This document shows, in pieces, positions 9,001 through 64,000 of a DNA stretch of 64,000 bases. The stretch comes from Argopecten irradians (lineage: Eukaryota > Mollusca > Bivalvia > Pectinida > Pectinidae): NCBI RefSeq assembly GCF_041381155.1, contig NC_091143.1:38517996-38581995 (forward strand). Direction: 5' to 3'. Positions within the stretch are counted from its first letter, which is position 1. Each line of letters opens with the position of its first letter. The notes below the pieces were generated by a model. The model had not been told where the DNA came from. It saw only the letters and a program-made list of their open reading frames with translations, and ran no database searches. Both the position numbers and the translations under genes were made by a program.

Positions 9001-12000
9001 TGGGGGGGGGGGGGTTGGGTGGGGTGGGTGGGGGGGGGGGGGGTGTGGTGGTGGGGTGGGTGGGGTGGTGGTGTGGGTTTGGGTGGGGGGGGGGTGGGGT
9101 GTGTTGGGGGGGGGGGGGGGGGGGTGTGGGGGTGTGGGTGGTGGGGGTGGGTGGGGGTGGGGGGGGGGTGGGTGGGGGGTGTGGTGGGGGGGGTGTGGTG
9201 TGGGGGGGTGGGTGTGGTGGGTGGGGGGGGTGTGTGTGGTGGGGTGGGGGGGGGTGGTTGGGGGGGGGGGTGGTGGGGGGTGGTGGGGGTTGGGGTGGGG
9301 GTGGGGGTGTGGGGGGGGGGTGGGGGGGTGGGTGGGTGGTGGGTGTGGGGGGGTGTGTGGGGGGGGGTGTGGGGGGGGTGGTGTGGTGGGGTGTGGGTGG
9401 GGGGTTGGGGGGGGGGTGGGTGGGTGGTGGTGTTGGGGGGGTGGGTGGGGGTGTGGGGGGGTGTGGTGTGTTGGGTGGTGGGTTGGTGTGGGTGGGGGGG
9501 GGTGGGGGGTGTGGGGGTGGGGGTGGTGGGGGTGGGGGGTGGGGGGGGGTGGGGGGGGGTGTGGGGGGGTGTTGTGGGGTGGTGGTGTGGGTGGTGGGGG
9601 GGGGGGGGTGGGGGGGGGGGTGGGGTGGGGTGGGGGGGGTGGGGGGGGGGGGGGGGTGGGTGGGGGGGGGGTGGGGGGTGGGGGGGGGGTGGGGGGGGGG
9701 GGGGGTTGGGGGTGGGTGGTGGGTTGGGGGGGTGGGGGGGGGGGTGTGGTGGGGGGGGGTGGTGGGGGGGGGGTGGGGGTGGGGGGGTGGGGGGTGGGGG
9801 TGGTGGGTGGGGGGTGGGGGGGGGGGGGTAGGGGGGGGGGGGTGGGGGGGGTGGGGGGGGGGGGTGGTGGGGGGGGGGGGGGGGTGGTGGTGTGGGGGGG
9901 TGGGTGGTGGGTGGGGGGGGGTGGGGGGGGGTGTTGGGGGGGGTGGGGGGGGGTGGTTGGTGTGGGGTGGGGGTGTGGTGGGGTGGGTGGGGGGGGGGGG
10001 GGGGGGGGGGGTGGGGGGTGTGTGTGGGGGTGGGGGGGGGGGGGGGTGGGTGGTGGTGTGTGTTATTGGGGGGGGGGGGGTGTGGGGGGGGGTGGGTGTG
10101 GTGGTGGTGTGTGGGGTGGTGGTGTGTTGTGTGGGGTGGGTGTGGTGGGTTGTGGGTGGGGGGGGTGGGGGTGGGGGGGTGGGGGGTGGGGGTGTGGGGG
10201 TTGGGGGGGGGGGTGGGGTGGGGGGTGGGTTGGGTTGTTGTTGGGGTGTTGGTGTGTGTGGTGGGGGTTGGGGGGGGGTGTTGGGGTGGGTTGTGGTGTG
10301 TGGTTGTGGGGTTGGGGGTGTGGGGTGGGGGGGGGGGGGGGGGGTGGTGGGGGTGGTGGGGGTGGGGGGGGTGGGGGGTGGGGTGGGGGGGGGGGGTGTG
10401 TGGGGGGGGGGTGGGTGGGGGTGTGTTGGGGTGGGGGTTGGTGGTGGGGTGGTGGTGTGTTGGGTGGGGGGTGGGGTGGTGTTTTGGGGGGGGGGTGTGG
10501 TGGGTGGGTGGGGTGGGTGGGGTGGGGGGTGGGGTTTTGGGGTTTGGGGTGTGTGTGTGGGTTGGGGGGTTGGTGTGGTGGGTGGTGGTGGGGTTGGGGG
10601 GGGGTGTGGGGGGGGGTGGTGGGGGGTGTTTGTGTTGTGGGGGGTGTGTGGGGTGTGGTGTGGTGGGGGTGGTGGGGTGTGGGGTGGTGGGGTGTTGGTG
10701 TGTGTGTGGGGGTGGGGGTGGGGGGGGGTGGGGGGTTGGGGGGGGTGGGGGTGGGGGGGTGTAGGTGGGGGTGGGTGGGGGGGGGGGGGGGGGGGGGTGG
10801 GGGGGGGGGTGGTGGGGGGGGGGGGTGTTAGGTGTGGGGGGGGTGGTGGTGGGTGTGTTGGTGGTTGGGGGGGTGGGGGGGGGTTGGGGTGTGGGGTGGG
10901 GGTGTTGGTGTGTGGGTGGGTGGGGGTGGTGTGGGGGGGGTGGGGGGGGGGGGTGTATAGGGTGTAGGTAGGGGTTGGTGTGGGTTAGGTGTAGGTAGGG
11001 GGGTGGTGTGTTGGGTGTAGGTAGGGGTGGTGGTGGTGTGTTAGGTGTAGTAGGGGTGGTGGGGTGGTGGTGTAGGTAGGGGTGGTGGAGTGTAGTGTAA
11101 GGTAGGGGTGGTGGTGTGTTAGGGGTAGGTAGGGGTGGTGGTGTTGGGGTGGGTGGGTGGTGGGTTAGTGTGTTGGTGGGGTAGGTGGTGGTGCGTTAGA
11201 GTGTAGTGTAGGGGTGGTGGGTATGGTTGGGTAGGTAGGGGTGGTGTGTTAGGGTTGGTTGGGGGTGGTGGGGGGTGTTGGGTGGTAGGTAGGGGTAGGT
11301 GGGGTGTGTTAGGTGTGGGTAGGGTGGTGGTGTGTGGGTGTAAGGTTGGGGTGGAGTGGTTGATGGTGGTAGGGGTGGTGGGGTGTTAGGTGTAGGTAGG
11401 GGTGAGTGGTATGTTAGGTGTAGGTGGGGTGGTGGTGTGGTGGTGGGTAGGTAGGGGTTGGGGTGGTGTGTTAGGTGTAGGTAGGGGTGGTGGTGTGTTA
11501 GGTGTAGGTAGGGGGTGGTGTGTTAGGTGTAGGTAGGGGTGGTGTGTTAGGTGTGGTGGTGTGTAGGTGTAGGAGTGGTGGTGTGTTAGGTGTAGGTAAG
11601 GGGGTGGTGGTGTGTTAGGTGTAGGTAGGGGTGGTGGTGTGTGTTAGGTGTAGGTAGGGGTGGGGGTGTAGGTGTAGGTAGGGGTGGTGTGTGTTAGGTG
11701 TAGGTAGGGTGGTGGTGTGTTAGGTGTAGGTAGGGGTGGTGGTGTGTTAGGTGTAGGTAGGGGTGGTGGTGTGTTAGGTGAAGGTAGGGGTGGTGGTGTG
11801 TTTGGTGTAGGTAGGGTGGTGGTGTGTTAGGTGTAGGTAGGGGTGGTGGTGTGTTAGGTGTAGGTAGGGGTGGTGGTGTGTTAGGTGTAGGTAGGGGTGG
11901 TGGTGTGTTAGGTGTAGGTAGGGGGGGTGGTGTGTTAGGTGTAGGTAGGGGTGGTGGTGTGTTAGGTGTAGGTAGGGGTGGTGGTGTTAGGTGTAGGTAG

Positions 12001-44757: not shown

Positions 44758-47700
44758 ATGAGGACAACTACTCCAGAAAAACTGGTCCAGCTCCAGAAAA
44801 ACCCATCCAACATCCGAAACATTTGTATCCTGGCTCATGTTGATCATGGTAATTAATTATAAGGGATTGCTCATCAACAAGCAATAAATTTGACAAGATA
44901 ATGAATGTTTAGACTTGATGGCAAACTGCCCTCCTCTTTGTAATTATTTTACAGTGTACAAATTTTTTTTTGTATTTATTGTATTTTATTTTTCCAAATT
45001 TTTATCAAACAGAATTAGATAACATATAAAGAAGATACAACTTTCATTCCTAACACATCTATTATGCAGTGTACATAATTTTACACATCGATTTAAGGAA
45101 TAAGTGTACAATTTACTGTAATTCTTTTGCCAACTGGCTCAGTTTCATGAACATTCCCGAAAATATGCTTCATGGCTGACAAATGGTAATTTTTCTCTAT
45201 CAAAAACAGGAGCTGACGAATTAGTAGTATTTTTCTTCAGTTACAAAAGTTACTTACTTTACACCATTAAAACCACCATTGAAAAGTTTGAGCTTCTAAT
45301 CTTACTTCAGTTTTACTTTTATTCTGCCCCAAATGAACCTAAAAAAACACTTCCAGTTCCCCATCGGTGCTTATAGAGTGGAATATAATATCAGTACTTT
45401 CAAGTCATTTAAATCAATATTGTAATTGTGTTTTGAAGGAAAAACCACTCTTGCTGATGCTTTGGTGGCCAGTAATGGTATCATTTCACAGAGGATGGCT
45501 GGCAAGGTAATATTACACATAGTTATCTCCCCTTGTCAGATTACTGACAGACATAATATCAGTTTATACATGGTATATTTCAAATTAAAACAGCAAATTA
45601 TGATTTCAAGCTGGTGTATTTGTTCATATTCACTTATTTTTTGTTGCACAAGAAATTACTGACTTGTAATATACATTTTGTTTTGAATTATTTTTTGTTG
45701 ATAGTTATATAGGATTCTTAAAATAAAAAAAGAAGTTAAAATTTGATATTTTTGTCATAAGAACTACTTCTAATTTTGTATCTCAGCTATCAAAACTCTT
45801 TATTTTGTGTTCTATCAGTTGCGATATATGGATAGTAGAGAGGATGAACAGACACGTGGAATCACTATGAAATCCAGCGCTATATCCTTAGCTGTCCAGA
45901 AAGGTAACAACTCTATATATGTATCCTTCTCTATAACTCAAGTTTGTACATAACAGCAGTGGCCAAATGGGACTAATTCACATACCACGCGATACCTGAT
46001 AACGTTTGTGTGGGACTATTGTTTCTATTGGTAATGTAATGACGTCATTTCAGAGGGAAAATTTCAAAGAGTTACATTTCATTATCACTGGAGATACTTA
46101 TCCTGCACAAACGTTATCGGTTACGTATCTCATGGTAATTAGTTCCATAGTTAAAGATGTCTCCCTGTCTGCCACAAGCTTTCTGCCTTGGGTTGTGAGT
46201 TCTCTTGTAAGGATGTACTAGTATATTTATATGTCTCAGTTTGAAAGACTAATTACTATTAATTACAATTTGGTGATGACTTTGTTTGGTAATACATGTA
46301 TATCTGTTTCTATGTACTAATCCAATTAGTTGGTTGCACTTTGATTGCCTTTTCAATAGTGTCCTGTTTTACCATTTTTATCCACTTTTTTATATGATTG
46401 TTGTGTTTTAACGGGGAAAAACATTTTATCATTCAAATCTCTTGAAACCCTTTCAAAAACATAGAAGGTGTTTTATAATAGAACACATTATTTTTTACCA
46501 TAAAGTATGCTTTAAAAGCTGTACCAATGTTGATGTTTGTTTGGCCCTAAATGACCCAGACTAATTTGGTGGGCCGTTAAATAAATTAAAAAAAAAAAAA
46601 AACCCCAAAAAAAAAAAAAAAAAAAAAAACTCTGGGTACCAGACCAACACCGTTTAACAAATCTCCAAATAAAAGATAGATCTTTGCTTTGAAAAGTACA
46701 TGATATAAAATATTGATAAAAATAAAATGTGAATTGAATTTGATGTCAAATCCCCGTGTTTATTTTACAGAAACACAGGAGTACCTCGTTAATCTGATAG
46801 ACTCACCAGGTCACGTTGATTTCTCGAGTGAGGTGTCGACAGCTGTTCGTCTTTGTGATGGAGCTGTGGTTGTCGTAGACGTGGTGGAAGGAGTCTGCCC
46901 TCAGGTAGATTTCTTCATCAGCTTATTTTGTAATACATTGTAGTTTTGTTTGACCTGAAACACTTGCATTACTTTGTATATGCGGTTTGGATGTGTATTC
47001 CGTCTTTGCATATTACAGAGGTAGCTCCCTTGCGGGTAGGTATCGATTGTTACGTCATTATTTTGTGAGCACAATTCACGTCGTTTTCTCCGAAACGTAT
47101 GACGTTACACTCGCAAACACATGACGTCACAATCAATACCTACCCGCAAGTGCAGATAACTCTGTAATATGCAAATTCGGAATACTAAAAATTTGCATAG
47201 GGATCGAGATTTTCCAATCAAATGCTACCTTGGTTTTAATTTCTGACACCTTTGTGAAGACTGAATGTGAGGTGGGACAGCATTGTTTCTTATTTAATTA
47301 GATTTACTTCTAACGTTTTTATGGAGATTGACTATAGATGTTGGTTGTGAAAGTGTTCTTGTGTTTAATTAATTCTGAGAGTTCATTGTATTTAACCAGA
47401 CCCATGCAGTACTGAAACAGGCGTGGCTGGAAAACATCAAGCCGGTACTGGTCTTTAACAAGCTCGATAGGCTGATCATGGAACTGAAGATGGACCCACT
47501 GGAAGCTTTCTTTCATCTACAAGTTATTTTGGAACAGGTATTTAATACTGACTAATTGACCTAATTAGGACCCTGCTACAGAATCGTAACTAGTAGGCGA
47601 TTACAAGTTCTTTATATTGGTTACGCTTGAGGATGTTTAGAATAAGCCATCATTCTAAAATTGCACGACATATATGTACCAAAGGGGTAATGCTACTCAC

Positions 47701-50700
47701 ACGCTGAGACACCTACCGTCTTTTGTTAGCTTCTCTCCCTCTTACAATTTTTTTTTTTGCACTTACAATAGTTACAGAAGCTGATTCCACTGAATTGATG
47801 TGTTTTAGGTAAACTTGGTGACCAATGAGCTGTTTACTACAGAGATTATGGCTAAGACTTCCAATGTAAGTACCTATACTGTCCTCTCTGGTATAACTTT
47901 ATATATATATATTTGAAAAAAATTATACCTTTTACCGTTTTCGCTGTAATTAGTGCCCCTCCGTCTATAAGCGCCCCTCCCTTTTTCTGGAGAAATGATG
48001 AAGTTGTATAAACGCCCCCATCCCAAGAAAATAACCCTGTTTTACAAAATGTGATGCCTCTGTCACCAGCAATGTATCCCATATGGAGCCATATGGAGTC
48101 TTTTACATTTGGATCACAACATAATAATGCATCTCAAAGGACAAAAGGCATATGCATGTTTACTGTAACAGATCAATGTACCATGAGTACAGAAAGATTT
48201 AAAATATGGATGACTTTTTTGTCCGCAACTTACATTTTGGTCCACTAATAAGCAACCCCTTTGTTACAATTATTTAAGTGCCCTGGACGCTAATTACAGG
48301 AAATACGGTATACATAAATGATTTTTTCATAAATCTATGAAAATGTGACAACCCTAATGTCGTTGTTGTACGTTTGATGCATTAATCATGCAGTGTTAAA
48401 AACCATAAATATAATGTAATATCTGTATTGAGATGTTTGATGTATACCTTGCTTTATACCAATGAAGACAATCTACTCTAAGCTTTTCTTAGCAGATTGA
48501 TGGCACAGGTCAGGAGTCAGAGGAAGCTGGGGTGAGAAATTCTAAGTCATATTGCAATTCATATCTACAGAGATGTGGTTCATATCTACAATGATGTAGT
48601 TCATATTTACAATGATGCAGTCCATATCTACAATGATGTAGTTCATATCAACAATGATGTAGTTCATATCAACAATGGTAGTTCACATCTACAATGATGT
48701 AGTTCACATCTACAATGATGTAGTTCACATCTACAATGATGTAGTTCACATCTACAATGATGTAGTTCACATCTACAATGATGTAGTTCACATCTACAAT
48801 GATGTAGTTCACATCTACAATAATGTAGTTCACATCTACAATGATGTAGTTCACATCTACAATAATGTAGTTCACATTTACAATGATGTAGTTCACATTT
48901 ACAATGATGAAGTTCACATCTACATGATGTAGTACCGGTATTTCACATCTACAATGATGTGTAGTTCACATCTACATTGATGTACCGGTATTTCACATCT
49001 ACAATAATGTAGTTCACATTTACAATGATGTAGTTCACATTTACAATGATGAAGTTCACATCTACATTGATGTACCGGTATTTCACATCTACAATAATGT
49101 AGTTCACATCTACAATAATGTAGTTCACATTTACAATGATGTAGTTCACATTTACAATGATGTAGTTCACATCTACAATGATGTAGTTCACATCTACAAT
49201 GATGTAGTTCACATCTACAATGATGTAGTTCACATCTACAATGATGAAGTTCACATCTACAATCATGAAGTTCACATCTACAATCATGAAGTTCACATCT
49301 ACAATCATGAAGTTCACATCTACAATCATGAATTTCACACCTTCAGTGATGAACTATACCACCAAATAAGCATCACAACTTAATTTATATGTTTATTTAC
49401 AGTCCCATGATTGGACAATACAGGCAGATGATGAAGAAGAGGAAAGGAACATATTCTTCTCTCCATCACAAGGCAATGTTGTTTTCGCCAGTGCATATGA
49501 TGGCTGGGGTTTCACGTAAGTCGATAGAGAATGTCTGTTCAATAGAGATTTTCACAGTTGAATTAGAAATGTTGATCATTATTGATAGTGTGCCTTATAA
49601 TGGAATACATGTAGCCTGAAAATAGTTATTTTGTTTAAGCATTATCTATCTACCATAGTAATGCTGGAGTTAAAGCAGTAATAGGCCTGGCACAAAGATT
49701 ACGAGTTTAGACTTAGCCAATCACTGATAACATTACAAAAGTTCTTTCTTGGTTAGTTACAGCAAAAACTTAAGATTGTTTCATGATCCTGAAGCCAGGA
49801 CTAGCAAAATTAAACCATCTTGGGTAAAAATTATCTCCATTGTCTTTGAATACAAATTAATATTAACACAAATTAGTTTCTCTTCATTTCCCACAGGCTC
49901 AACCATTTTGCTGACATGTTTTCAAAAAAGTTGGGAATCAAGAAAGAAGTACTACAGAAGACATTGTGGGGAGATTTTTACCTGAATAGTAAAACTAAAC
50001 GTATTATGAAGGGTGCCCAGTCCAAGGTCAAAAAGCCATTGTTTGTACAGTTCATCCTAGAGAACATTTGGGCTGTGTACGAATCTGTGAGTGTTAAAAG
50101 GTAAGTGGAGATAACTCTTGTTTGTACATTTTATCGTGGAAAATATTTGGGTTGTGTAAGAGTCTGTGAGTGTTTAAAGGTAAGTGGAGATAACTCTTGT
50201 TTGCACAGTTCATCCTAGAGAACATTTGGGCTGTGAACGAGTCTGTGAGTGTTAAAAGGTTAGTGGGGATAACTCTTGTTTGTACAGTTGATTGTGGAGA
50301 ACATTTCGGCTGTGTATGAGTCTGTGAGTGTTAAAAGGTAAGTGGAGATAACTCTTGTTTGTACAGTTGATCGTGGAGAACATTTGGGCTGTGTACGAAT
50401 CTGTGAGTGTTAAAAGGTAAGTGGAGATAACTCTTGTTTGTACAGTTGATCGTGGAGAACATTTGGGCTGTGTACGAATCTGTGAGTGTTAAAAGGTAAG
50501 TGGAGATAACTCTTGTTTGTACAGTTGATCGTGGAGAACATTTGGGCTGTGTACGAATCTGTGAGTGTTAAAAGGTAAGTGGAGATAACTCTTGTTTGTA
50601 CAGTTGATCGTTGAGAACATTTGGGCTGTGTATGAATCTGTGAGTGTTAAAAGTTAAGTGGAGATAACTCTTGTTTGTACAGTTGATCATGGGGAACATT

Positions 50701-53700
50701 TGGGCTGTGTACGACTTTGTGATTGTTAAAAGGTAAGTGGAGATAACTCTTGTTTGTACAGTTGATCGTGGAAAACATTTGGGCTGTGTACGAATCAGTG
50801 AGTGTTAAAATGTAAGTGGATATAACTCTTGTTTGTACAGTTGATCATGGAGAACATTTGGGCTGTGTACGAGTCTGTGAGTAGAGATAATGACATTTCT
50901 AGGCTAGCCTCAATCTTTCCTCCACCAGTAAACATGTTTTGTCCACTAAATGTGATATAAACCAAGCCCAATGTTTGATTGTTGATGATATTTCTCTACA
51001 TTGTTGACAGAGATGTAGTAATGACTGAGAAGATTGTTAAGTCACTGGACCTGAACATCTTGCCGCGAGATATGAGACACAATGACCCGCGGGTGAAGCT
51101 ACAAGCTATAATGGGGCAGTGGCTGAGTGTGTCTAGAGCTGTCTTAGGTAAGGATCATAGAGGCTGGTATTTCACTCCTTTGGTGTGAGAAAGGAGAAAT
51201 TCAAACAGAGTGCATCTGCCTTGGGGTGAGACATTTGAATCTCAACTGGAGGGGCATCTCCCTTGAGTGAGAAATGCCAATCTCCACTTGCATAATATGA
51301 TCTTTGATTTTGTTGATATTATCAATGTGGATAATAGAATTAAACATTTTACAATATTGGGTAAAACACATACAAATAGCCTGAGTGCCACCAAAATGTA
51401 CACACAGAACTGTGAATTAAAACTTAGTCTTAATTGTAGAATTATATCTTGGTAAAATGTAGAAAAAAAACCACGTAAAAACACGAAACACAGTGAACGA
51501 CAAATAAGTAGTTTAAAGCATTCTAGTGTATAAAGTTTGTTTAAGCATGCTAGTATATAAATAGAAACACTTTGTTACCCATCAGACGTAGTGGTGGACA
51601 AGCTACCATCTCCGTTAGAAATCTCCGAGGACCGTGTAGAGAAACTGATGTGCTCTCAAGGTCAAAGCTTCCTGTCATTTCCCAAGGCCACACAGCAACT
51701 CAAGGAAGGTAAGGTCAAGGTGTTGAAAAGTACAATTTATATAAGGACATCTGTTACACATTCAGTGAATGTTTCATTTTGGATGTCTGTGTATACGTTC
51801 GTTAGACAATGTACTGTATTAATCCGGATATTACAGCAATAATCCTTATCCCCTTTCTATCAAGTGTTTTAGAACAAAGGACAAATAATACACATCTAGT
51901 GTTTTCGTTTGCTACTTTAAACAGCATTGGCAAAATATTTTGAAAATTTACTTTCTTTTAATATTTTATGTTGAAACTTTATGTATGAAACTGTACCATT
52001 TCAGCTTTTGTTGCCTGTAGTACAAGTGATAACAGCCCCGTGATATTGTTTGTATCTAAAATGTTTCCAGTAGAGAGAAAGATGTTACCACAATTCAAAC
52101 AAAGGTAGGTGTTTATGCCAGTCATTGGGCCATTCAAACCAAGTGTTTTTGTATTTCTATCAAAGAAATTCTCTAATTATTGGGAAGTTTTTATGTTGAT
52201 TCAAAAACTTTTATTCGAGTTTAATCATATTGGAGAAAGATTTAGTTTTAATTTGATCAAAGTATTTGAAAACAAATTTTGATTACATGCATATTGAATA
52301 TGATTTAGTTTGAATTTGATCAAAGTTTTTGAAAAACAATTTTATTGGAAACTTTCTGACTTTTTCATAAAAAAAATTGCAGAACCAAAAAGTGAATAAT
52401 GTTTTAGCCTTATTAGTAATGACTGGTTAAAACTTTATGATGTATCCAGTTACAAAATTACCAGAGATAGATGAAATATGCTGTCCTTTCCTTTAATCAT
52501 TAGGCCACTCACTGAGACAGAAATACAACAACGACGGGAGCAAGCCAGGCAGCGCCATCTGGAGAAAATGTCTGCTAACTCAAATGTAGTTGATGAGAAG
52601 GTGGTCGACAAAGATGGTAAGTCCTTGTGCTGATGTTGGGTTGGCTGTCTGTCCATCTGTCTGTCTGTATAGACACAACGTTGTGTGGCAAACTCCTCCT
52701 AAACTACTTGACAGATTTTGATAAAATTTGGTACACAGATCCATTATACAAAGGGGAGTTGAATACACTCAACACTCTGCAATTTCCTTTATTAATGGAC
52801 TAAATTTGTGAAGCGGGGGGTATTATTCGGCCATTCTGGCCACAGTTCTACAAATGCAAAAACATCATAAAATTTTGGTTTTCGTCCACAGATAAGCCGC
52901 ACTGGTGTATAAGCCGCACTCTCGATTTTCAGGGAAAAAATTCATGGCTTATACTCCGGAAAATATAGAAGTTTGTTTAGAAGTACTTGCATGCAATATA
53001 AAAGACAAAGTTTAGAGAGGTCTATATGGTATCAAATAAGTATATAGAACACAGTTAGTCATTGACCAGGAGATATATCTAGGTCTACAAAACTCAGAAT
53101 GAGTTACTCATTGACCAGGAGATATGTCTAGGTCTACAAAACTCAGAATGAGTTACTCATTGACCAAGAGATATGTCTAGGTCTACAAAACTCAGAATGA
53201 GTTACTCATTGACCAGGAGATATGTCTAGGTCTACAAAACTCAGAATGAGTTACTCATTGACCAGGAGATATATCTAGGTCTACAAAACTCAGAATGAGT
53301 TACTCATTGACCAGGAGATATATCTAGGTCTACAAAACTCGGAATGAGTTACTCATTGACCAGGAGATATATCTAGGTCTACAAAACTCAGAATGAGTTA
53401 CTCATTGACCAGGAGATATATCTAGGTCTACAAAACTCAGAATGAGTTACTCATTGACCAGGAGATATATCTAGGTCTACTAAACTCGGAATGAGTTACT
53501 CATTGACCAGGAGATATATCTAGGTCTACAAAACTCGGAATGAGTTACTCATTGACCAGGAGATATGTCTAGGTCTACTAAACTCGGAATGAGTTACTCA
53601 TTGACCAGGAGATATATCTAGGTCTACAAAACTCGGAATGAGTTACTCATTGACCAGGAGATATATCTAGGTCTACAAAACTCGAATATGAGTTACTCAT

Positions 53701-56700
53701 TGACCAGGAGATATATCTAGGTCTACAAAACTTTGATTGATGTGGATTAATGAGTTACTGCACATTATTGACCAGGAGATAGATATCTAGGTCCACAATG
53801 CAACTCGGAATGAGTTACTCATTGACCAGAGACCGATATCTAGGTCTATCAAAATAGGAATGAGTTATCGCTCCACTGACCAGGGAGGATATAGTCTAGG
53901 TCTTACAAAACTCGGAATGAGTTACTCATTGACCAGGAGATATGTCTTGCTACTGGACTTGGAAAATGACCTGGGGATTCACAGGTAGGCAAAATACAGG
54001 AGAGTCCTAATTATGACACCTCAACTGGTAGGGTCAAAGCCCAGGTAATTCTGAGTTACTCCACAGACCAGGTCCTATATCTAGGTACATAGAATGTTTT
54101 AAAAAAAGTCAACTCAAAGAATAGAAGAGATTTGACCATTGTACTTGTAGGTCTAAAAACAAGGAGATTGTCCTAATCTTGACCCTTACTTACTGGAATT
54201 TAAACAAAGGTCTAGGGTCTACAACTTGTCCGATCCCTTACTGGTAGACACAAAATGACCAGGAGGTCCTAATCTTGACCCCTTTACTGGTAGGACAAAA
54301 CAAGGATGTTAGGTCCTAATCTTGACCCCTTACTGGTAGACAAAACAAGGATGTTAGGTCCTAATCTTGACCCCTTACTGGTAGACAAAACAAGGATGTT
54401 AGGTCCTAATCTTGACCCCTTACTGGTAGACAAAACAAGGATGTTAGGTCCTAATCTTGAACCCCTTACTGGTAGACAAAACAAAGGTGTTAGGTCCTAA
54501 TCTTGATCCCTTTACTGGTGACAAAACAAGGGTGTTAGGTCCTAATCTTGACCTTTTACTGGTAACAAAACAAGGATGTTAGGTCCTAATCTTGACCCCT
54601 TACTGGTAGGACACAAAACAAGGTATGTTAGGTCCTAATCTTGACCCCTTACTGGTAGACAAAACAAGGATGTTAGGTCCTAATCTTGACCCCTTACTGG
54701 TAGACAAAACAAGGATGTTAGGTCCTAATCTTGACCCTTTACTGGTAGACAAAACAAGGATGTTAGGTCCTAATCTTGACCCCTTACTGGTAGACAAAAC
54801 AAGGATGTGTTAGGTCCTAATCTTGACCCCTTACTGGTAGACAAAACAAGGGTGTTAGGTCCTAATCTTGACCCCCTTACTGGTAGACAAAACAAGGATG
54901 TTAGGTCCTAATCTTGACCCCTTACTGGTAGGCAAAAACAAGGATGTTAGGTCCTAATCTTGACCCCTTTACTGGTAGACAAAACAAGGATGTTAGGTCC
55001 TAATCTTGACCCTTTACTGGTAGACAAAACAAGGATGTTAGGTCCTAATCTTGACCCTTTACTGGTAGGCAAAACAAGGATGTTAGGTCCTAATCTTGAC
55101 CCCTTACTGGTAGGCAAAACAAGGATGTTAGGTCCTAATCTTGACCCCTTACTGGTAGACAAAACAAGGATGTTAGGTCCTAATCTTGACCCCTTACTGG
55201 TAGACAAAACAAGGTGTTAGGTCCTAATCTTGACCCCTTACTGGTAGAACAAAACAAAGGATGTTAGGTCCTAATCTTGACCCTTACTGGTAGGCAAAAA
55301 CAAGGGTGTTAGGTCCTAATCTTGACCCCTTACTGGTAGGCAAAACAAGGATGTTAGGTCCTAATCTTGACCCCTTACTGGTGGGCAAAACAAGGATGTT
55401 AGGTCCTAATCTTGACCCCTTACTGGTAGGCAAAAACAAAGGATGTTAGGTCCTAATCTTGACCCCTTACTGGTAGACAAAACAAGGATGTTAGGTCCTA
55501 ATCTTGACCCTTACTGGTAGGCAAAAACAAGGATGTTAGGTCCTAATCTTGACCCTTTACTGGTAGGCAAAACAAAGGATGTTAGGTCCTAATCTTGACC
55601 CTTTACTGGTAGACAAAACAAGGGTGTTAGGTCCTAATCTTGACCCCTTACTGGTAGGCAAAACAAGGGTGTTAGGTCCTAATCTTGACCCCTTACTGGT
55701 AGACAAAACAAGGATGTTAGGTCCTAATCTTGACCCCTTACTGGTAGACAAAACAAGGATGTTAGGTCCTAATCTTGACCCCTTACTGGTAGACAAAACA
55801 AGGATGTTAGGTCCTAATCTTGACCCCTTACTGGTAGACAAAACAAGGATGTTAGGTCCTAATCTTGACCCCTTACTGGTAGGCAAAACAAGGATGTTAG
55901 GTCCTAATCTTGACCCCTTACTGGTAGGCAAAACAAGGATGTTAGGTCCTAATCTTGACCCCTTACTGGTAGGCAAAACAAGGGATGTTAGGTCCTAATC
56001 TTGACCCCTTACTGGTAGGCAAAACAAAGGATGTTAGGTCCTAATCTTGACCCTTTACTGGTAGACAAAACAAGGATGTTAGGTCCTAATCTTGACCCCT
56101 TACTGGTAGGCAAAACAAAGATGTTAGGTCCTAATCTTGACCCCTTACTGGTAGACAAAACAAGGATGTTAGGTCCTAATCTTGACCCCTTACTGGTAGA
56201 CAAAACAAGGATGTTAGGTCCTAATCTTGACCCCTTACTGGTAGGCAAAACAAGGATGTTAGGTCCTAATCTTGACCCCTTACTGGTAGACAAAACAAGA
56301 TGTTAGGTCCTAATCTTGACCCCTTACTGGTAGGCAAAACAAGGGTGTTAGGTCCTAATCTTGACCCCTTACTGGTAGACAAAACAAGGATGTTAGGTCC
56401 TAATCTTGACCCTTTACTGGTAGACAAAACAAGGATGTTAGGTCCTAATCTTGACCCCTTACTGGTAGACAAAACAAGGATGTTAGGTCCTAATCTTGAC
56501 CCTTTACTGGTAGACAAAACAAGGATGTTAGGTCCTAATCTTGACCCCTTACTGGTAGACAAAACAAGGATGTTAGGTCCTAATCTTGACCCCTTACTGG
56601 TAGGCAAAACAAGGATGTTAGGTCCTAATCTTGACCCTTACTGTGTAGACAAAAAACAAGGATGTTAGGTCCTAATCTTGATCCCTTTACTGGTAGGCAA

Positions 56701-59700
56701 AACAAGGATGTTAGGTCCTAATCTTGACCCCCTTACTGGTAGACAAAACAAAGGATGTTAGGTCCTAAATCTTGACCCTTTACTGGTAGACAAAACAAGG
56801 ATGTTAGGTCCTAATCTTGACCCCTTACTGGTAGGCAAAACAAGGATGTTAGGTCCTAATCTTGACCCCTTACTGGTAGACAAAACAAGGATGTTAGGTC
56901 CTAATCTTGACCCCCTTACTGGTGGGCAAAACAAGGATGTTAGGTCCTAATCTTGACCCCTTACTGGTAGACAAAACAAGGATGTTAGGTCCTAATCTTG
57001 ACCCCTTACTGGTAGACAAAACAAGGATGTTAGGTCCTAATCTTGACCCTTTACTGGTAGGCAAAACAAAGGTGTTAGGTCCTAATCTTGACCCCTTACT
57101 GGTAGGACAAAACAAGGGTGTGTTAGGTCCTAATCTTGACCCCTTACTGGTAGGCAAAACAAGGGTGTTAGGTCCTAATCTTGACCCCTTACTGGTAGAC
57201 AAAAACAAGGATGTTAGGTCCTAATCTTGACCCTTTACTGGTAGACAAAACAAGGGTGTTAGGTCCAAATCTTGACCCTTACTGGTAGCAAAACAAGGAT
57301 GTTAGGTCCTAATCTTGACCCCTTACTGGTAGACAAAACAAAGGTGTTAGGTCCTAATCTTGACCCCTTACTGGTAGGCAAAACAAGGATGTTAGGTCCT
57401 AACCTTGACCCCTTACTGGTAGACAAAACAAGGGTGTCGCAATCAAAACATAATAAAGCATGATTGTCTTGGTAAACATGTCATAATAGAGCCTTTCTTA
57501 TAGAAATGAAATTAAAAATCTCTTATTATTTCTGTAAATACTAGTTATGGTATAATACAAAGCCTAAATGCTTGTGACAAATCAAATTATTGAACTCATT
57601 TAAAAAAGATGCTCCACCGCCGACAGAGCATAAATGATACCCAAAATTTGAAACAATAATTGGTGTTTAATCGTGTATATATATGTCATTATTAACACAA
57701 AACATAATTTAAAAAAAAATTATTTTGCTTTGGCGCATGTGCAATCAGTACTGTATTTCATATAGGGACATAGTGCCACAGATTTTTTTTTCGGGATCCA
57801 ATTAATTATTTCTAATATTTTTATCTTAAAGCAACATTAGAAGCTCAAACTTTTCATTGGTGGTAATGGTGTAAAGTAAGTAACTTTTGAAACTGAAGAA
57901 AAATACTAAAATTGCCTTCTCCTGGTTTTGATAGAGGAAAATTACTACCCATTTGTCAGCGGTGGAGCGTCTTTAAGAATTTATGATATATGTAGGGACT
58001 CATGTTAGATACTCTACACTATATTTTGTGGTAAGAACCTTTATCTAGATGTGTGTAATCTATGACACAGGTTGTAGAAGGAGCTGTTCGTGTCGGGCAG
58101 TCTGTGGACACGACCTCTGGGGCTCAGGGAACACGATCACAGCTTTCTCGGGTGTCGGACCTGTTTCTGTTCTATTTATGGGCGAGAAAATTGGAACACA
58201 TGGATGAGATCCCCGCCGGGAACATACTGGGTTGGTATTGAATCATTTTATATGGCCAAGTACAATATTCAGTGTCTTTGCATATTGATAGAGTTATCTC
58301 CCTTAATCGGGTAGGTTTCAAATGCCATTAGTGCCTCATTATTTATTTTAAAAAAAAAAGCCGCGCACACAACTCATGCTCGTTTTCTCTGAAAAGTATA
58401 ATGTTATCGTCTGAAAACACATGATGTTTACACAATGAACAATACCCACCCCACAAGGGTAGATAACTCTGTAATATGCAAAAATCAAAAAAGTAACTTT
58501 TGAAATGAGTCAGTAACATACATGTTTTAGGACTTCTGTGTTACTAAAAACCGCTGTGAACCAATTCATTCTTCTTGTGCAATTAAATTCACATGTGTTA
58601 AAAATAATTGAAAAAATCAATAGTTGTGAATGAATACATTTTATGCTATAATGCCAGTAGATGATGAAATTCAATTGCTATGAAAAATTTTATGACTCCC
58701 AGAAATAAATTTGTTTAATGTTATTTGATCAAAGAAATGCTCTGTTCTGAACTGAAGGGGTAAAGCATAAAATACTGTTAAACCAGCCCTTTGTATAATC
58801 TGCTATCATAAAAAGTTCTACAATTGAAGTTTAATATTCAATGTTACATGTGTTCAGGATTAGGTGGACTGGAAAACCACATCCTAAAGTCGGGGACCGT
58901 GTCCAGTACGGTCATGTGTCCAGCCTTCACTGACCTCTACTTCGATGCTTCACCTATTGTGAGAGTGGCTCTAGAACCCAAACATGCTGGTAGGTATCAA
59001 AAACTGACCACATGCTGTCTATATAATGAAAAAAACATTGATTTATTTTATAATTTCAAGGCTAATTGATAACATGAAGTGATGTTAAAATCAAAAATTG
59101 TTATCATAAGGTATGTACAAGAATTGAGTCTGGTGTAGAGGATATATATTATCCTGTACCAGAAATCTATATTTAGATATCATTAGTATAATATTTCTTT
59201 TGTATGAAAAGTGGGAGTGCTAAATGGTCAATAATATATTTTCATTAGTTATAATTTGAATTTATTTTTATCATAAAGTGTAGTTTGGTTGTTTCTCTTT
59301 TTTCAACTCTCCAATGATGAATTATTTTACTAAGTTTTCCACTTGATTTGACCATAATGTTTTGACATTGATGTGTCCTTGCTATTACTTTGGTATGACT
59401 TTGAAATGACCTTGACCTTGATATGACCTTAATTTACCCTATGTCTACAGGTGAAATGGGACACTTGGTGCGGGGACTGAAGCTTCTGAACCAGGCTGAT
59501 CCGTGTGTTCAGGTGTTGGTTCAGGAGACGGGTGAACACGTCATTATTACAGCCGGTGAAGTTCATTTACAGCGATGTCTGGACGACCTTAGACAGAGGT
59601 CAGTTTATCTTTCTATTCCGTCTTTGCATATTACAGAGTTAGCTACCTTGCGGGAAGGTATCGATTGTTACATCATTATTTTGTGAGCGCAATTCACGTT

Positions 59701-62700
59701 GTTTTCTCCGAAAATATGATGTTAGGCACGCAAACTCATGATGGCACAATTCAATATATCTACATGCAAGGGCAGATAACTCTGTGATATGCAAATACAT
59801 AATATATTAATGGAGTGATAAATCACATATGGTACAGCTGTGATTCAAGAAGTTCAAAGTGAAATTTCAATGGTTTTAAATTTTCACAATCTAGCTTTCA
59901 GGATATGTATGTTTCAATTATTTGAAAAAAAATTGCTGATAAAATGTTCGCAATTATAGCAATAAAGGAAAATGGTATGGTATTTCTAATTTAAAAAAAG
60001 CCATGTACAAATATGTATGAAATAGTCGGAATTGAACATGTACCCAGTGGTATAGGTAATTTAACTCCTAGAATGTGATTCTGTGTTCTACATAAAAATT
60101 TGGTTGCAACTGAAAAAATCCTCATCACATAAAGATTAATCACTACACAATATTTAGTAAAGAGTGGAATATATAATATGTGTATTGATAATTATTATCT
60201 TTTTACTGTTTCAGGTATGCTAACATTGAACTGCACGCCTCATCACCAATAGTACCATTCAGAGAAACCATCATTAATCCTCCAAAAATGGACATGGTCA
60301 ATGAAGTCATTCAAGATCAGCCAATCAAAACAGCTAAGACAAAGGAGTTTGAGGATGATGAGGAAGTGATTGAGACAGGATTGGTTGAGACCTATACGAC
60401 CAATCAGAAGTGCTGTATCAGAATACGAGCATTGCCTCTACCTGATGCAGTTACAAACTTGCTAGAGGAACACGTAAAACTTCTGCAAACTCTCAACAGA
60501 TTTAACAAAGCTAAAATTTATGGACAAAGCAGCGATGTTAAGGATACAGTTTTAGAGGCTCTCAATAATCTAAAATCTAGCATAGATAAAGCTTTCACAG
60601 AAGAAGGTAAATCATGGGCAGGCTTTGTAGAAAAGATCTGGGCATTTGGACCAAAGAGGGTCGGACCAAACTTGCTGGTGAATCAGGTAGAAGGATACAA
60701 CAGACCCTCAGTGTGGGACTTTAAAGGCTCCGAGAGAGTCTTCAGGGACTTTGATAATAGTATAATCAGTGGATTCCAGATGGCAACCCTCGCTGGTCCG
60801 TTATGTGAGGAACCAATACGTGGTGTATGTTTTGTGATAGAGAAGTGGGAATACAGTGACATGTCTTATGCTCGACTAGCTAGGCTTAGTGAATCTGAAA
60901 GTGAGTCAAAGTTAAATGAAGATGATAGTGTAGCACTCAGTAGCTCTTTAGAAAAGTCCGCAATTATAGAGGAGGAAGACGAGAAATGCGATGACAGTGA
61001 TCAAGACAAGGATTCGTCTGAGGAGGTAAAGGATATTGTCAAAACACAGAGGAGAAAGGAGTATGGACCATTTTCAGGACAGATTATTTCCTGTGTGATA
61101 GCAGGATGTAGGAAAGCATTCCAGACACGACCGCAGAGACTCATGGTAGCCATGTATAAATGTAACATACAGGCCACCTCTGATGTATTAGGTGAGTACA
61201 GGGGCCATGTATAAATATAACATACAGGCCACCTCTGATGTATTAGGTGAGTATGGGGGCCATGTATAAATGTAACATACATGCCACCTCTGATGTATTA
61301 GGTGAGTACAGGGGCCATGTATAAATGTAACATACAGGCCACCTCTGATGTATTAGGTGAGTACAGGGGCCATGTATAAATGTAACATACAGGCCACCTC
61401 TGATGTATTAGGTGAGTACAGGTGTCATGTATAAATGTAACATACAGGCCACCTCTGATGTATTAGGTGAGTACAGGGGTCATGTATAAATGTAACATAC
61501 AGACCACCTCTGATGTATTTAGGTGAGTACAGGGGTCATGTATAAATGTAACATACAGGCCACCTCTGATGTATTAGGTGAGTACAGGGGTCATGTATAA
61601 ATGTAACATACAGGCCACCTCTGATGTATTAGGTGAGTACAGGGGTCATGTATAAATGTAACATACAGGCCACCTCTGTTGTATTAGGTGAGTACAGGGG
61701 TCATGTATAAATGTAACATACAGGCCACCTCTGATGTATTAGGTGAGTACAGGGGTCATGTATAAATGTAACATACAGGCCACCTCTGATGTATTAGGTG
61801 AGTACAGGGGTCATGTATAAATGTAACATACAGGCCACCTCTGATGTATTAGGTGAGTACAGGGGCCATGTATAAATGTAACATACAGGCCACCTCTGAT
61901 GTATTAGGTGAGTACAGGGGCCATGTATAAATGTAACATACAGGCCACCTCTGATGTATTAGTGAGTACAGGGGTCATGTATAAATGTAACATACAGGCC
62001 ACCTCTGATGTATTAGGTGAGTACAGGGGTCATGTAATAAATGTAACATACAGGCCACCTCTGATGTATTAGTGAGTACAGGGGCCATGTATAAATGTAA
62101 CATACAGGCCACCTCTGATGTATTAGGTGAGTACAGGGGCCATGTATAAATGTAACATACAGGCCACCTCTGATGTATTAGGTGAGTACAGGGGCCATGT
62201 ATAAATGTAACATACAGGCCACCTCTGATGTATTAGGTGAGTACAGGGCCCATGTATAAATGTAACATACAGGCCACCTCTGATGTATTAGGTGAGTACA
62301 GGGCCATGTATAAATGTAACATACAGGCCACCTCTGTTGTATTAGGTGAGTACAGGGGTCATGTATAAATGTAACATACAGGCCACCTCTGATGTATTAG
62401 GTGAGTACAGGGTCATGTATAAATGTAATATACAGGCCACCTCTGATGTATTAGGTGAGTACGGGTGTCATGTATAAATGTAACATACAGGCCACCTCTG
62501 ATGTATTAGGTGAGTACAGGGGCCATGTATAAATGTAACATACAGGCCACCTCTGATGTATTAGGTGAGTACAGGGGCCATGTATAAATGTAACATACAG
62601 GCCACCTCTGATGTATTAGGTGAGTACAGGGGTCATGTATAAATGTAACATACAGGCCACCTCTGATGTATTAGGTGAGTACAGGGGTCATGTATAAATG

Positions 62701-63688
62701 TAATATACAGGCCACCTCTGATGTATTAGGTGAGTACGGGTGTCATGTAAAAAATGTAACATACAGGCCACCTCTGATGTATTAGGTGAGTACAGGGGCC
62801 ATGTATAAATGTAACATACAGGCCACCTCTGATGTATTAGGTGAGTACAGGGGCCATGTATAAATGTAACATACAGGCCACCTCTGATGTATTAGGTGAG
62901 TACAGGGGCCATGTATAAATGTAACATACAGGCCACCTCTGATGTATTAGGTGAGTACAGGGGTCATGTATAAATGTAACATACAGGCCACCTCTGATGT
63001 ATTAGGTGAGTACAGGGGTCATGTATAAATGTAACATACAGGCCACCTCTGATGTATTAGGTGAGTACAGGGGTCATGTATAAATTCAACATGCTGGCTG
63101 TACTAAGGTGGCCAAAATATCTCAGATTTTGATAAATTTGGTACACAGAACCCTGACATAAGGGGGAGTTGAGTGAACTATATAGGGTTCTGCAATGTCC
63201 CTTATTAATGGAGTTATTACTAAACTTGTGCAGCGGAGGTATTAGTCGGCCACTCTAGTGACAGTTCTAGCTTTTAATCAGTTTATTTCCTGATGAATGT
63301 TTTTTTTTTCACAGATCATGACTTTTTCATAACTGCATTATCTGTGAAGTAACAAGGCAAAGATCATCCTCTTTTGATAGCCATGTTGGAAAATTTTAAT
63401 TTGAAATTTGATATGAAGATAAAAATTGACCCTTTTAATGTAATATCAGATTGTATGATCTATAAAAGGATATTTTGTGTATACTGCTGTTGTTGTTTTC
63501 CAGGTAAGCTGTATGCAGTGCTAGGGAAGAGGAACGGAAGTATACTGGAGGGCGATATGACCGAGGGCTCCCAGATCTTCAATGTAGTGGCCACCCTCCC
63601 CGTCATAGAGAGCTTTGGGTTTGCTGAGAACATCAGGAAGAAAACCAGTGGACTGGCAAGTCCTCAGCTGGTGTTTAGTCATTGGCAG
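44758..63688 (+). CDS. EFL1: elongation factor-like GTPase 1, 3'-incomplete at window edge and missing one internal exon
   Basis: EFL1 works with SBDS to release eIF6 from new 60S subunits in the cytoplasm. Coding exons: 44758-44848, 45439-45506, 45819-45903, 46771-46904, 47400-47537, 47809-47865, 48496-48531, 49403-49515, 49897-50100, 51011-51147, 51586-51708, 52005-52104, 52504-52616, [one not found], 58071-58230, 58858-58989, 59451-59598, 60215-61191, 63504-63688. All junctions keep frame except 52616 to 58071 (phase 1 to phase 0), which shows a missing exon. GTPase motifs: AHVDHGKTT (26-34, split by intron 1), RGIT (66-69), DSPGH (92-96), NKLD (146-149), [10 protein letters not shown]2-like blocks: [95 protein letters not shown]. 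The last ~65 residues lie beyond the window. Confidence 0.95.
45137..45320 (-). mobile_element. half copy of the 57601 TIR element
   Basis: ATGGTAATTTTTCTCTATCA to TTTGAGCTTCTAATCTTACT is the reverse complement of the right part of 57601-57977. It lies in EFL1 intron 1, next to a family C fragment. Confidence 0.6.
46588..46629 (+). repeat. poly(A) tract
   Basis: A run of A broken by CCCC in EFL1 intron 3. It could be the tail of an old retroposed copy, but no body was recognised upstream. Confidence 0.7.
46996..47184. mobile_element. MITE family A, 189 bp, best copy
   Basis: The ends TATTCCGTCTTTGCATATTA and TAATATGCAAATTCGGAATA are inverted repeats. Inner arms are TTGCGGGTAGGTAT and ATACCTACCCGCAA. 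It contains TACGTCAT and TGACGTCA. It lies in EFL1 intron 4. Confidence 0.85.
47940..48310. mobile_element. MITE with GCGCCCCTCC motifs
   Basis: CCGTTTTCGCTGTAATTAGT then CTATAAGCGCCCCTCC at the left and CGCTAATTACAGGAAATACG at the right are loosely inverted. A related block is at 22265-22450. It lies in EFL1 intron 6. Confidence 0.5.
48560..49345. repeat. 21-bp array in EFL1 intron 7
   Basis: Unit GTAGTTCACATCTACAATGA then T, repeated about 36 times, starting some 25 bp after the splice donor and ending about 55 bp before the next acceptor. Three copies carry an insertion GTACCGGTAT, so there is a higher-order block of about 110 bp. Multiples of three keep frames open on both strands; these are not genes. 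Confidence 0.95.
50039..50885 (+). repeat. 79-bp array made of an EFL1 exon end plus its splice donor
   Basis: The last ~62 bp of the exon ending at 50100 (TTGTTTGTACAGTT ... GTGAGTGTTAAAAG) and the first ~17 bp of the intron (GTAAGTGGAGATAACTC) are repeated, about 11 copies including the exon itself. Most copies keep AAAAGGTAAGTGG, a strong 5' splice site. Each also has CTCTTGTTTGTACAG, which looks like a 3' splice site. A copy spliced in would be 50 nt and would bring an early stop. Confidence 0.95.
52640..52865. repeat. dispersed repeat, also at 63095-63290
   Basis: TTTTGATAAAATTTGGTACA then CAGATCC, GGGGAGTTGA, and TTTATTAATGGACTAAA are shared with 63095-63290 in the same order. Both copies lie in EFL1 introns. 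The class is unknown. Confidence 0.65.
52885..52970. mobile_element. MITE end, GGAGTATAAGCC type
   Basis: AAGCCGCACTGGTGTATAAG then CCGCACT and inverted GGCTTATACTCCGGAAAATA correspond to the 23118 copy in reverse orientation. Confidence 0.5.
53045..53950. repeat. 49-bp array in EFL1
   Basis: Unit GAGTTACTCATTGACCAGGA then GATATATCTAGG and TCTACAAAACTCAGAAT (49 bp), about 18 copies. It is very regular to about 53680 and then increasingly irregular. It contains ATTGACCAG, which could derive from a 3' splice site. That is speculative. Confidence 0.95.
53950..54245. other. garbled junction between the 49-bp and 45-bp arrays
   Basis: Fragments of both arrays are mixed with many indels (for example GACCAGGAGGTCCTAATC at about 54258). 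The missing EFL1 exon is expected about here. The sequence looks like a poor consensus or a collapsed join rather than evolved DNA. Confidence 0.6.
54245..57440 (+). repeat. 45-bp array encoding LGPNLDPLL, probably from the missing EFL1 exon
   Basis: Unit GATGTTAGGTCCTAATCTTG, then ACCCCTTACTGG and TAGACAAAACAAG (45 bp), about 70 copies with small indels. In the EFL1 direction each unit reads [19 protein letters not shown]1 proteins have VLGPxxDP just before the region encoded at 58071, the part not found in any exon here. CTG followed by GTAGAC or GTAGGC would be the splice donor and ends the codon frame in phase 0, as the exon at 58071 requires. The array therefore looks like repeated exon end plus donor. 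Long frames on both strands are not separate genes. Confidence 0.85.
57601..57977 (+). mobile_element. non-autonomous TIR element
   Basis: AAAGATGCTCCACCGCCGAC and the inverted GTCAGCGGTGGAGCGTCTTT bound about 375 bp of AT-rich sequence. A half copy in the opposite direction lies in EFL1 intron 1 at 45137-45320. No coding capacity. Confidence 0.75.
58266..58485. mobile_element. MITE family A, diverged copy
   Basis: TCTTTGCATATTGATAGAGT at the left and AACTCTGTAATATGCAAAAA at the right, with TAATCGGGTAGGTTTC / CAATACCCACCCCAC inside. It begins about 35 bp after the splice donor at 58230. Confidence 0.7.
59614..59806. mobile_element. MITE family A copy next to a splice donor
   Basis: TATTCCGTCTTTGCATATTA starts 16 bp after the EFL1 exon end at 59598. 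The right end is AACTCTGTGATATGCAAATA. Inner arms TTGCGGGAAGGTAT / TATATCTACATGCAAG are partly decayed. Confidence 0.75.
61151..63085 (+). repeat. 54-bp array made of an EFL1 exon end plus its splice donor
   Basis: The last ~41 bp of the exon ending at 61191 (CATGTATAAATGTAACATAC then AGGCCACCTCTGATGTATTAG) and the first ~13 bp of the intron (GTGAGTACAGGGG) are repeated about 36 times with over 90% similarity by eye. Nearly all copies keep TTAGGTGAGTAC, a strong donor. Reading past the first donor meets a stop within the next unit. Confidence 0.97.
63095..63290. repeat. dispersed repeat, second copy
   Basis: TTTTGATAAATTTGGTACAC then AGGGGGAGTTGAG and CCTTATTAATGGAGTTATTA match 52640-52865. 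It lies between the 54-bp array and the last exon in the window. Confidence 0.65.
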
Positions 63689-64000
63689 GTCAGTGAATCA
63701 AAACTTTATATAATATATACATGTAGCATTTTACATTATAATTTCCCGTTTTAAAGTTATATGTACCATATTTTTCATACTCACGAATCAAGATTCATCA
63801 CCAAAAGTTACCAACATCTTGAGAATAACAGTTCTTTTAATGCATTGGTTTTCATTTACACGTACAAATACATGTAAGAGCTACATCTAAAGTGAAGAGA
63901 AATTTGTACATACTGTCAGACAATGAAGCCAAAATGTGGTCTACAACTTCATTGAATATTTATACAGTGTTATTAGAAATTGTTCAGTGATTTATGCAGG
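63689..64000 (+). other. start of an EFL1 intron, runs off the window
   Basis: A donor (GTCAGT) follows the exon at 63688. The remaining 310 bp are AT-rich with no exon. A TTTATGCAGG at the very end could be the next acceptor, but no coding sequence follows to test it. Confidence 0.5.

Follow-up and report, generated by a model that had tools for sequence, protein, structure and literature searches.

Minisatellites across splice junctions of the EFL1 gene in the scallop Argopecten irradians, and the likely origin of a 45-bp array from a missing exon

We analyzed a stretch of 64,000 nucleotides from the bay scallop Argopecten irradians (contig NC_091143.1, positions 38,517,996 to 38,581,995 of the forward strand; hereafter the window), which carries the gene of EFL1, the elongation factor-like GTPase 1. 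One intron of this gene contains a 45-bp array, which in all likelihood is a minisatellite of the mirage type, spanning a splice junction: it would consist of about 70 degenerate copies of the end of an EFL1 exon (exon K) and of the beginning of the intron that follows. Exon K itself is missing from the assembly. Two other arrays of the gene, with units of 79 and 55 bp, certainly derive from exon ends together with their donors (5′ splice sites). An initial annotation of the sequence had described a single array; the 45-bp array is real, but because EFL1 contains two further arrays of this type, junction arrays are not peculiar to exon K.

The EFL1 gene was followed as far as the window shows it, and 18 of its exons were placed with GT/AG borders. 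Once joined, these exons give an open frame of 1000 residues, which is 99% identical to the NCBI model of A. irradians EFL1 (P0001) and whose alignment to a second protein, P0002, spans the whole query with 91% identity. The exon ending at 52616 stops in phase 1 and exon L at 58071 starts in phase 0, so that an exon with a length of 2 mod 3 is missing between them, as had been deduced initially. P0002 contains this exon K, followed by VVEGAV, which corresponds to the exon at 58071. The source sequence of P0002 is only 3749 nt long and is thus transcript-like. The boundary of exon K and the length of its end, which had been predicted from the general VLGPxxDP pattern, match P0002 exactly. Furthermore, the end of exon K is identical in P0002 and in P0003-P0005 (Pecten, Ylistrum, Mizuhopecten).

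Tandem Repeats Finder (TRF) recovered the satellite of about 70 copies that had been reported in this intron (54235-57437, 70.6 copies, period 45, 94% matches). When the array was aligned on GGTCCTAA, 69 anchors were obtained; of the 68 intervals between them, 45 measured exactly 45 bp. The consensus of these 45 exact-length units is GGTCCTAATCTTGACCCCTTACTGGTAGACAAAACAAGGATGTTA, and its translation starts with V or M. The units had been described as devoid of stops. This holds for the consensus, but the assembled array contains 86-99 stops in each forward frame, with a longest open stretch of 143 codons, because indels break the frame. The commonest donor of the units, CTG/GTAGAC (39 copies), has a score of −1.2 and the second one, CTG/GTAGGC (22 copies), a score of 2.6, while the median for the donors of EFL1 itself is 4.1 (all donor scores are matrix scores). 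A search of the genome with the 45-bp unit gave 22 matches; 21 were located within the array or at its edge, and the remaining one was weak (74%) and on another contig. The unit is therefore not dispersed at many unrelated loci, as an introner or a transposon-borne array would be and as the initial annotation had considered incompatible with an exon origin, within searches that, for the 45-, 79- and 55-bp units alike, score the best candidates only and from which rarity is not provable.

The relation between the unit and exon K was evaluated by a codon distance, defined as the fewest base changes that turn the codons of the unit into codons of the exon K end, with GT required next. The consensus lies at a distance of 5, and a GTG variant present in 9 of the 45 units at a distance of 4. 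Among 20,000 dinucleotide shuffles of this unit, none with GT in place reached 5, and one reached 6; without the GT requirement, a single shuffle in 20,000 reached 5. For the other 18 EFL1 exons, the exon ends lay at distances of 13-19 from the same unit. Moreover, the match between unit and exon stops exactly at the exon K boundary known from P0002. On the grounds of the codon-distance tests, the best reading of the unit is 30 nt of exon followed by 15 nt of intron. The derivation of the unit from the end of exon K and its donor, as judged from sequence comparison, is thus well supported.

Several points weigh against this reading. Exon K was compared only through the back-translated codons of the near-identical P0002, and with the real exon K absent from the assembly the intron half of the unit is putative. 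The proposal that the array consists of exon end and 5′ splice site is upheld by the distance of 5 and the fit at the boundary, but not in every residue: four of the ten residues at the exon K end differ between P0002 and the unit, the consensus encoding NL and LL where exon K encodes KH and SQ. Given these differences and the weak commonest donor, the copies are not faithful. In a frameshift-tolerant protein-to-DNA search, exon K found no match in the intron 52617-58070; the best score, 37, fell inside the 45-bp array and barely tops the best of other stretches. Background scores were 24 on the other strand of the intron and 24-35 on both strands of seven stretches elsewhere in the window (the last of which overlaps the intron in part), and exon L, as a positive control, scored 178. 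The strength of the exon K origin rests on the exact-boundary tests.

The other arrays of the gene were compared with its exons in the same way. The first unit of the 79-bp array is the copy belonging to exon I and ends in AAG/GTAAGT. Seven later units have a consensus that deviates from this copy at 3 of 79 positions, and all five genome matches of the unit lie inside its own array. The motif TAG/GTGAGT is present in 32 of the 34 donors found by pattern in the 55-bp array, whose unit also matches the genome only inside its own array (16/16). The 49-bp array, in the same intron as the 45-bp array, shows no exon origin: its unit has a distance of 16 to the end and of 12 to the start of exon K, and its best value against EFL1 exon starts is 9, for the non-adjacent exon F, which is not a good fit. 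The 21-bp unit of another intron fits neither exon ends nor exon starts (distance of 17 to the exon K end). Thus, among five arrays of at least 3 copies and a period of at least 20 within 44758-64000, a donor is certainly spanned by two and was very probably spanned by the 45-bp array as well, a share that is not unbiased because the window was picked for its array.

Table 1. Position of the EFL1 gene, its relevant exons and its tandem arrays in the window.
Feature	Position	Strand	Basis or remark
EFL1 gene, exons A to P, 18 placed, exon K missing	44758..63688	+	splice-joined translation
21-bp array, another EFL1 intron	48558..49351	+	TRF
EFL1 exon I; last 62 nt open the 79-bp array	49897..50100	+	
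79-bp array, 10.7 copies; unit of 62 nt of exon I and 17 nt of intron beginning GTAAGT	50039..50882	+	TRF
EFL1 exon preceding missing exon K	52504..52616	+	ends in phase 1
49-bp array, same intron as the 45-bp array	53053..53732	+	TRF
Garbled passage from the 49-bp to the 45-bp array	53732..54235	+	sequence, by eye
45-bp array, 70.6 copies; unit read as degenerate last 30 nt of exon K and 15 nt of intron	54235..57437	+	TRF; codon-distance tests
EFL1 exon L, after missing exon K	58071..58230	+	starts in phase 0
EFL1 exon O; 3′ end opens the 55-bp array	60215..61191	+	
55-bp array, 35.3 copies; unit of exon O end, TAG/GTGAGT donor and intron start	61151..63092	+	TRF

We then considered whether the 45-bp repeat could be an ordinary intronic satellite whose likeness to VLGPxxDP is a coincidence. 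The 49-bp and 21-bp arrays, which show no exon origin, would fit such an explanation, as would the absence of the body of exon K beside the array in this assembly, and the short motif GGTAGACAAAACA of the 45-bp unit recurs in a 32-bp array on a different contig. It is nevertheless very unlikely, since no shuffle with GT in place attained the observed distance, the 18 other exon ends scored far from it, the match ends exactly at the boundary known from P0002, and two sister arrays in the same gene are exon-derived with certainty. The initial annotation had gone further and proposed that downstream donors could insert multiples of 15 residues into EFL1, the array being a bank of alternative donors. 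The length of the unit, a multiple of three, and its stop-free consensus are favorable to this proposal and distinguish it from the 79- and 55-bp units. However, P0002-P0005 run from DPSQ directly into VVEG, IEEG or VEEG at the junction between exons K and L, without any insert; the donors of the units fall below the gene median, stops occur throughout the assembled array in each forward frame, and an insert at this place would be expected to disturb domain 2. Because of the weak donors, the stops and the absence of an insert, this mechanism is hardly to be expected, and we regard it as the least probable of the explanations considered.

A true deletion of exon K in this animal, with an EFL1 that is truncated or no longer functional, as suggested by the NCBI model P0001, has to be weighed against a loss during assembly. 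P0001 is devoid of the exon K segment and has no PF03144 domain listed, and a genome search for exon K detected no copy elsewhere, its hits being limited to exon L and one weak match on contig C1. The C1 match was rejected as exon K (47% over query residues 38-67, E 0.065), as it looks EF2-like. On the other hand, P0001 crosses the gap with the residues GKSLC, which are the five codons read past the donor at 52616; judged from the sequence, this bridge looks like an annotation artefact. The 49-bp array passes into the 45-bp array through a stretch that, by eye, mixes both (53732-54235) and resembles merged repeats, and exon L seems to be full of insertions. The phases at the gap and the open frame of the 18 remaining exons, which align to P0002 over the whole query, make a true loss less likely, and we consider it highly improbable. 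We infer instead that exon K was lost when the assembly merged two repeat arrays, and the garbled stretch is probably the place of this loss. The annotated A. irradians EFL1 is therefore probably wrong in domain 2, and the loss of exon K would explain why an essential protein is annotated without part of this domain. The differences between exon L and P0002-P0005 resemble small assembly insertions, and P0001 inherits the missing exon K and the altered exon L alike.

The following scenario may account for a 45-bp array derived from exon K. The last 30 nt of the exon would have been duplicated head to tail together with the 5′ splice site, with intron sequence of about 15 nt in all. The copies would then have been amplified, presumably by slippage or unequal exchange, and homogenized within the intron, whereas coding constraint held the real exon copy. 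In the living genome, exon K would lie directly upstream of the array. The spliceosome would join its authentic first donor to exon L, and the whole array would leave with the intron. No function is required for such growth: a genome with about 15% of tandem repeats would seed some arrays over splice junctions, and these could persist as long as one correct copy remains. The junction arrays of EFL1 are most likely passive, with no evidence for or against selection on them. The junctions at exons I and O are ordinary in both P0001 and P0002, as is the junction at exon K in P0002, and the transcript-like P0002 reads cleanly through all three. When the units are read through, a TAA follows immediately upon the first donor in the 79-bp and MYCBPAP units (the latter from a random locus described below), and in the 55-bp unit it comes in the next copy. 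The use of a distal donor in these three would lead to the TAA and is expected to cause nonsense-mediated decay. Among the four donor-type units, the 45-bp unit is the only stop-free multiple of three.

The frequency of such arrays was estimated from a random sample of 23 loci of 10 kb (230 kb, from 80 drawn), screened by donor score and by eye in a manner that is not exhaustive. Two of the 23 loci contained a junction array. In the first (L016), the first unit of a 70-bp array is the exon end VARPAPPDAPLKPMDVSG/gtgagt, and the gene matches MYCBP-associated protein (MYCBPAP; PDB 9ijj_v, E 2.3e-7). In the second (L034), which is of the acceptor type, the last unit of a 47-bp array crosses the acceptor into the exon, with about 16 exon bases in common and 2 mismatches. 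This exon reads RVRDTLIHEMCHAAVWLVNGKTDGHGPYWRYW and, once joined to the next exon, is SprT-like (Pfam PF10263, E 8.6e-13). Two arrays in 230 kb would correspond to several thousand junction arrays in the whole genome, a figure that is uncertain by more than a factor of ten. Arrays with donors or open frames in L026, L028 and L018, and a 37-bp array in L016, gave no confirmed junction, L026 being a possible case.

These data do not indicate a special affinity of arrays for splice sites, which also counts against the interpretation given above. Donor-like motifs were not significantly enriched in the 28 arrays of the 23 random loci: with a score of at least 4, 5 were observed for a shuffle mean of 2.92, and 48 of 300 shuffles were as high; with scores of at least 5 and at least 6, the values were 3 versus 1.34 and 1 versus 0.57, respectively. 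Arrays with a period of 25-200 cover 33.6 of the 230 kb, and the report on the A. i. irradians draft genome gives 15.1% of tandem repeats (PMC7090048). In a genome so rich in repeats, some arrays will cross junctions by chance. One may speculate that scallops harbor thousands of junction arrays, in which an essential exon is followed by tens of strong donors (or acceptors) of identical sequence, and that either the exon-proximal donor is chosen reliably or the repeats are removed stepwise at AG/GT sites, each of which would regenerate the original exon end, the 45-bp array being an old stage with weakened donors; we regard this as rather unlikely.

Structures of this very kind have been described as mirage minisatellites in amphioxus Adh3, the globins BflGb6 and BflGb9, lancelet PGBD5 and TnC (PMC3087553, PMC3902484). 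They are found at 5′ or 3′ splice sites, splicing being apparently undisturbed in the cases tested; their length is unstable, and it has been proposed that new introns arise from them (PMC3087553, PMC3902484). The amphioxus and the scallop EFL1 arrays share a minisatellite-like tandem duplication over an intron/exon boundary, with units of tens to about 160 bp. In amphioxus and in the 79- and 55-bp arrays, the authentic exon is one terminal copy. The 45-bp unit fits the end of exon K, but its authentic terminal copy was not found in the assembly; one version of the amphioxus draft genome was also misassembled at such an array. The scallop differs from amphioxus by its mollusc host, by the presence of three arrays in one gene, by strong donors in 32 of the 34 scored units of the 55-bp array, and by copy numbers of about 11, 35 and 70 against 6 and 3 in two BflGb6 haplotypes.

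Other systems resemble the scallop arrays in part. Human internal tandem repeats are likewise variable repeats at exon-intron boundaries, but they create novel introns in segmentally duplicated primate genes, whereas in the scallop it is an intron of a conserved gene that the arrays make longer (PMC2812944). The dual-specific AG/GT arrays of UBC are similar in that the 79-, 55- and 70-bp units contain an AG/GT, a potential donor and acceptor; they differ in that each UBC unit is an entire coding monomer (228 nt), while the scallop units are fragments, most of them not multiples of three (PMC10809524). The 45-bp donor is CTG/GT, and neither 79 nor 55 bp is divisible by three, which sets these three arrays apart from the UBC type. 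The intron repeats of gilthead seabream MSTN-2 were rejected as a parallel, as they comprise 1-2 copies at the 5′ end of the intron with an exon that is not clearly included (PMC3045353). A literature search on splice-site minisatellites or tandem repeats and on scallops or molluscs, in which few subscription journals were covered, returned no mollusc report among the matches listed. As far as searched, our data extend mirage minisatellites from amphioxus to a bivalve, hence to a new phylum, and suggest that they may be common in bivalves. Arrays like that of 55 bp, where a conserved exon is followed by about 35 strong donors that are nearly identical, provide natural experiments on the choice of 5′ splice sites and on how introns grow and are gained. 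EFL1 is also a warning that assemblies can drop exons lying between repeats.

Some minor observations were made on these arrays. At L034:5104-6538, a 1.4-kb insert divides the 47-bp array, and its ends look by eye like inverted repeats (taccgtaaaaacttgtataatttgcgca ... tgcgcaaattacacaagtttttacggta); this is probably a DNA transposon that has jumped into the array. The 37-bp array of the MYCBPAP locus (L016:9085-10000, L031:1-4088) begins a few bases past the donor of another putative exon, excludes that donor and extends over about 5 kb. The 32-bp array carrying GGTAGACAAAACA (L010, G000:C16:28625000-28634000) sits within a garbled stretch in which several repeats are mixed, and it may have this motif in common with the 45-bp unit either by chance or through a common origin. 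In L018, the same 51-bp array with its flank occurs at 354-814 and at 9705-10000, about 9.35 kb apart, so that the sequence would point to a tandem duplication of the locus or to an assembly duplicate; the 51-bp repeat comes after the stop codon of a reading frame. Finally, the junction units at 50039-50882 of the window and at L016:1420-3443 both carry GAGTTATCTCC shortly after the donor, one on each strand.

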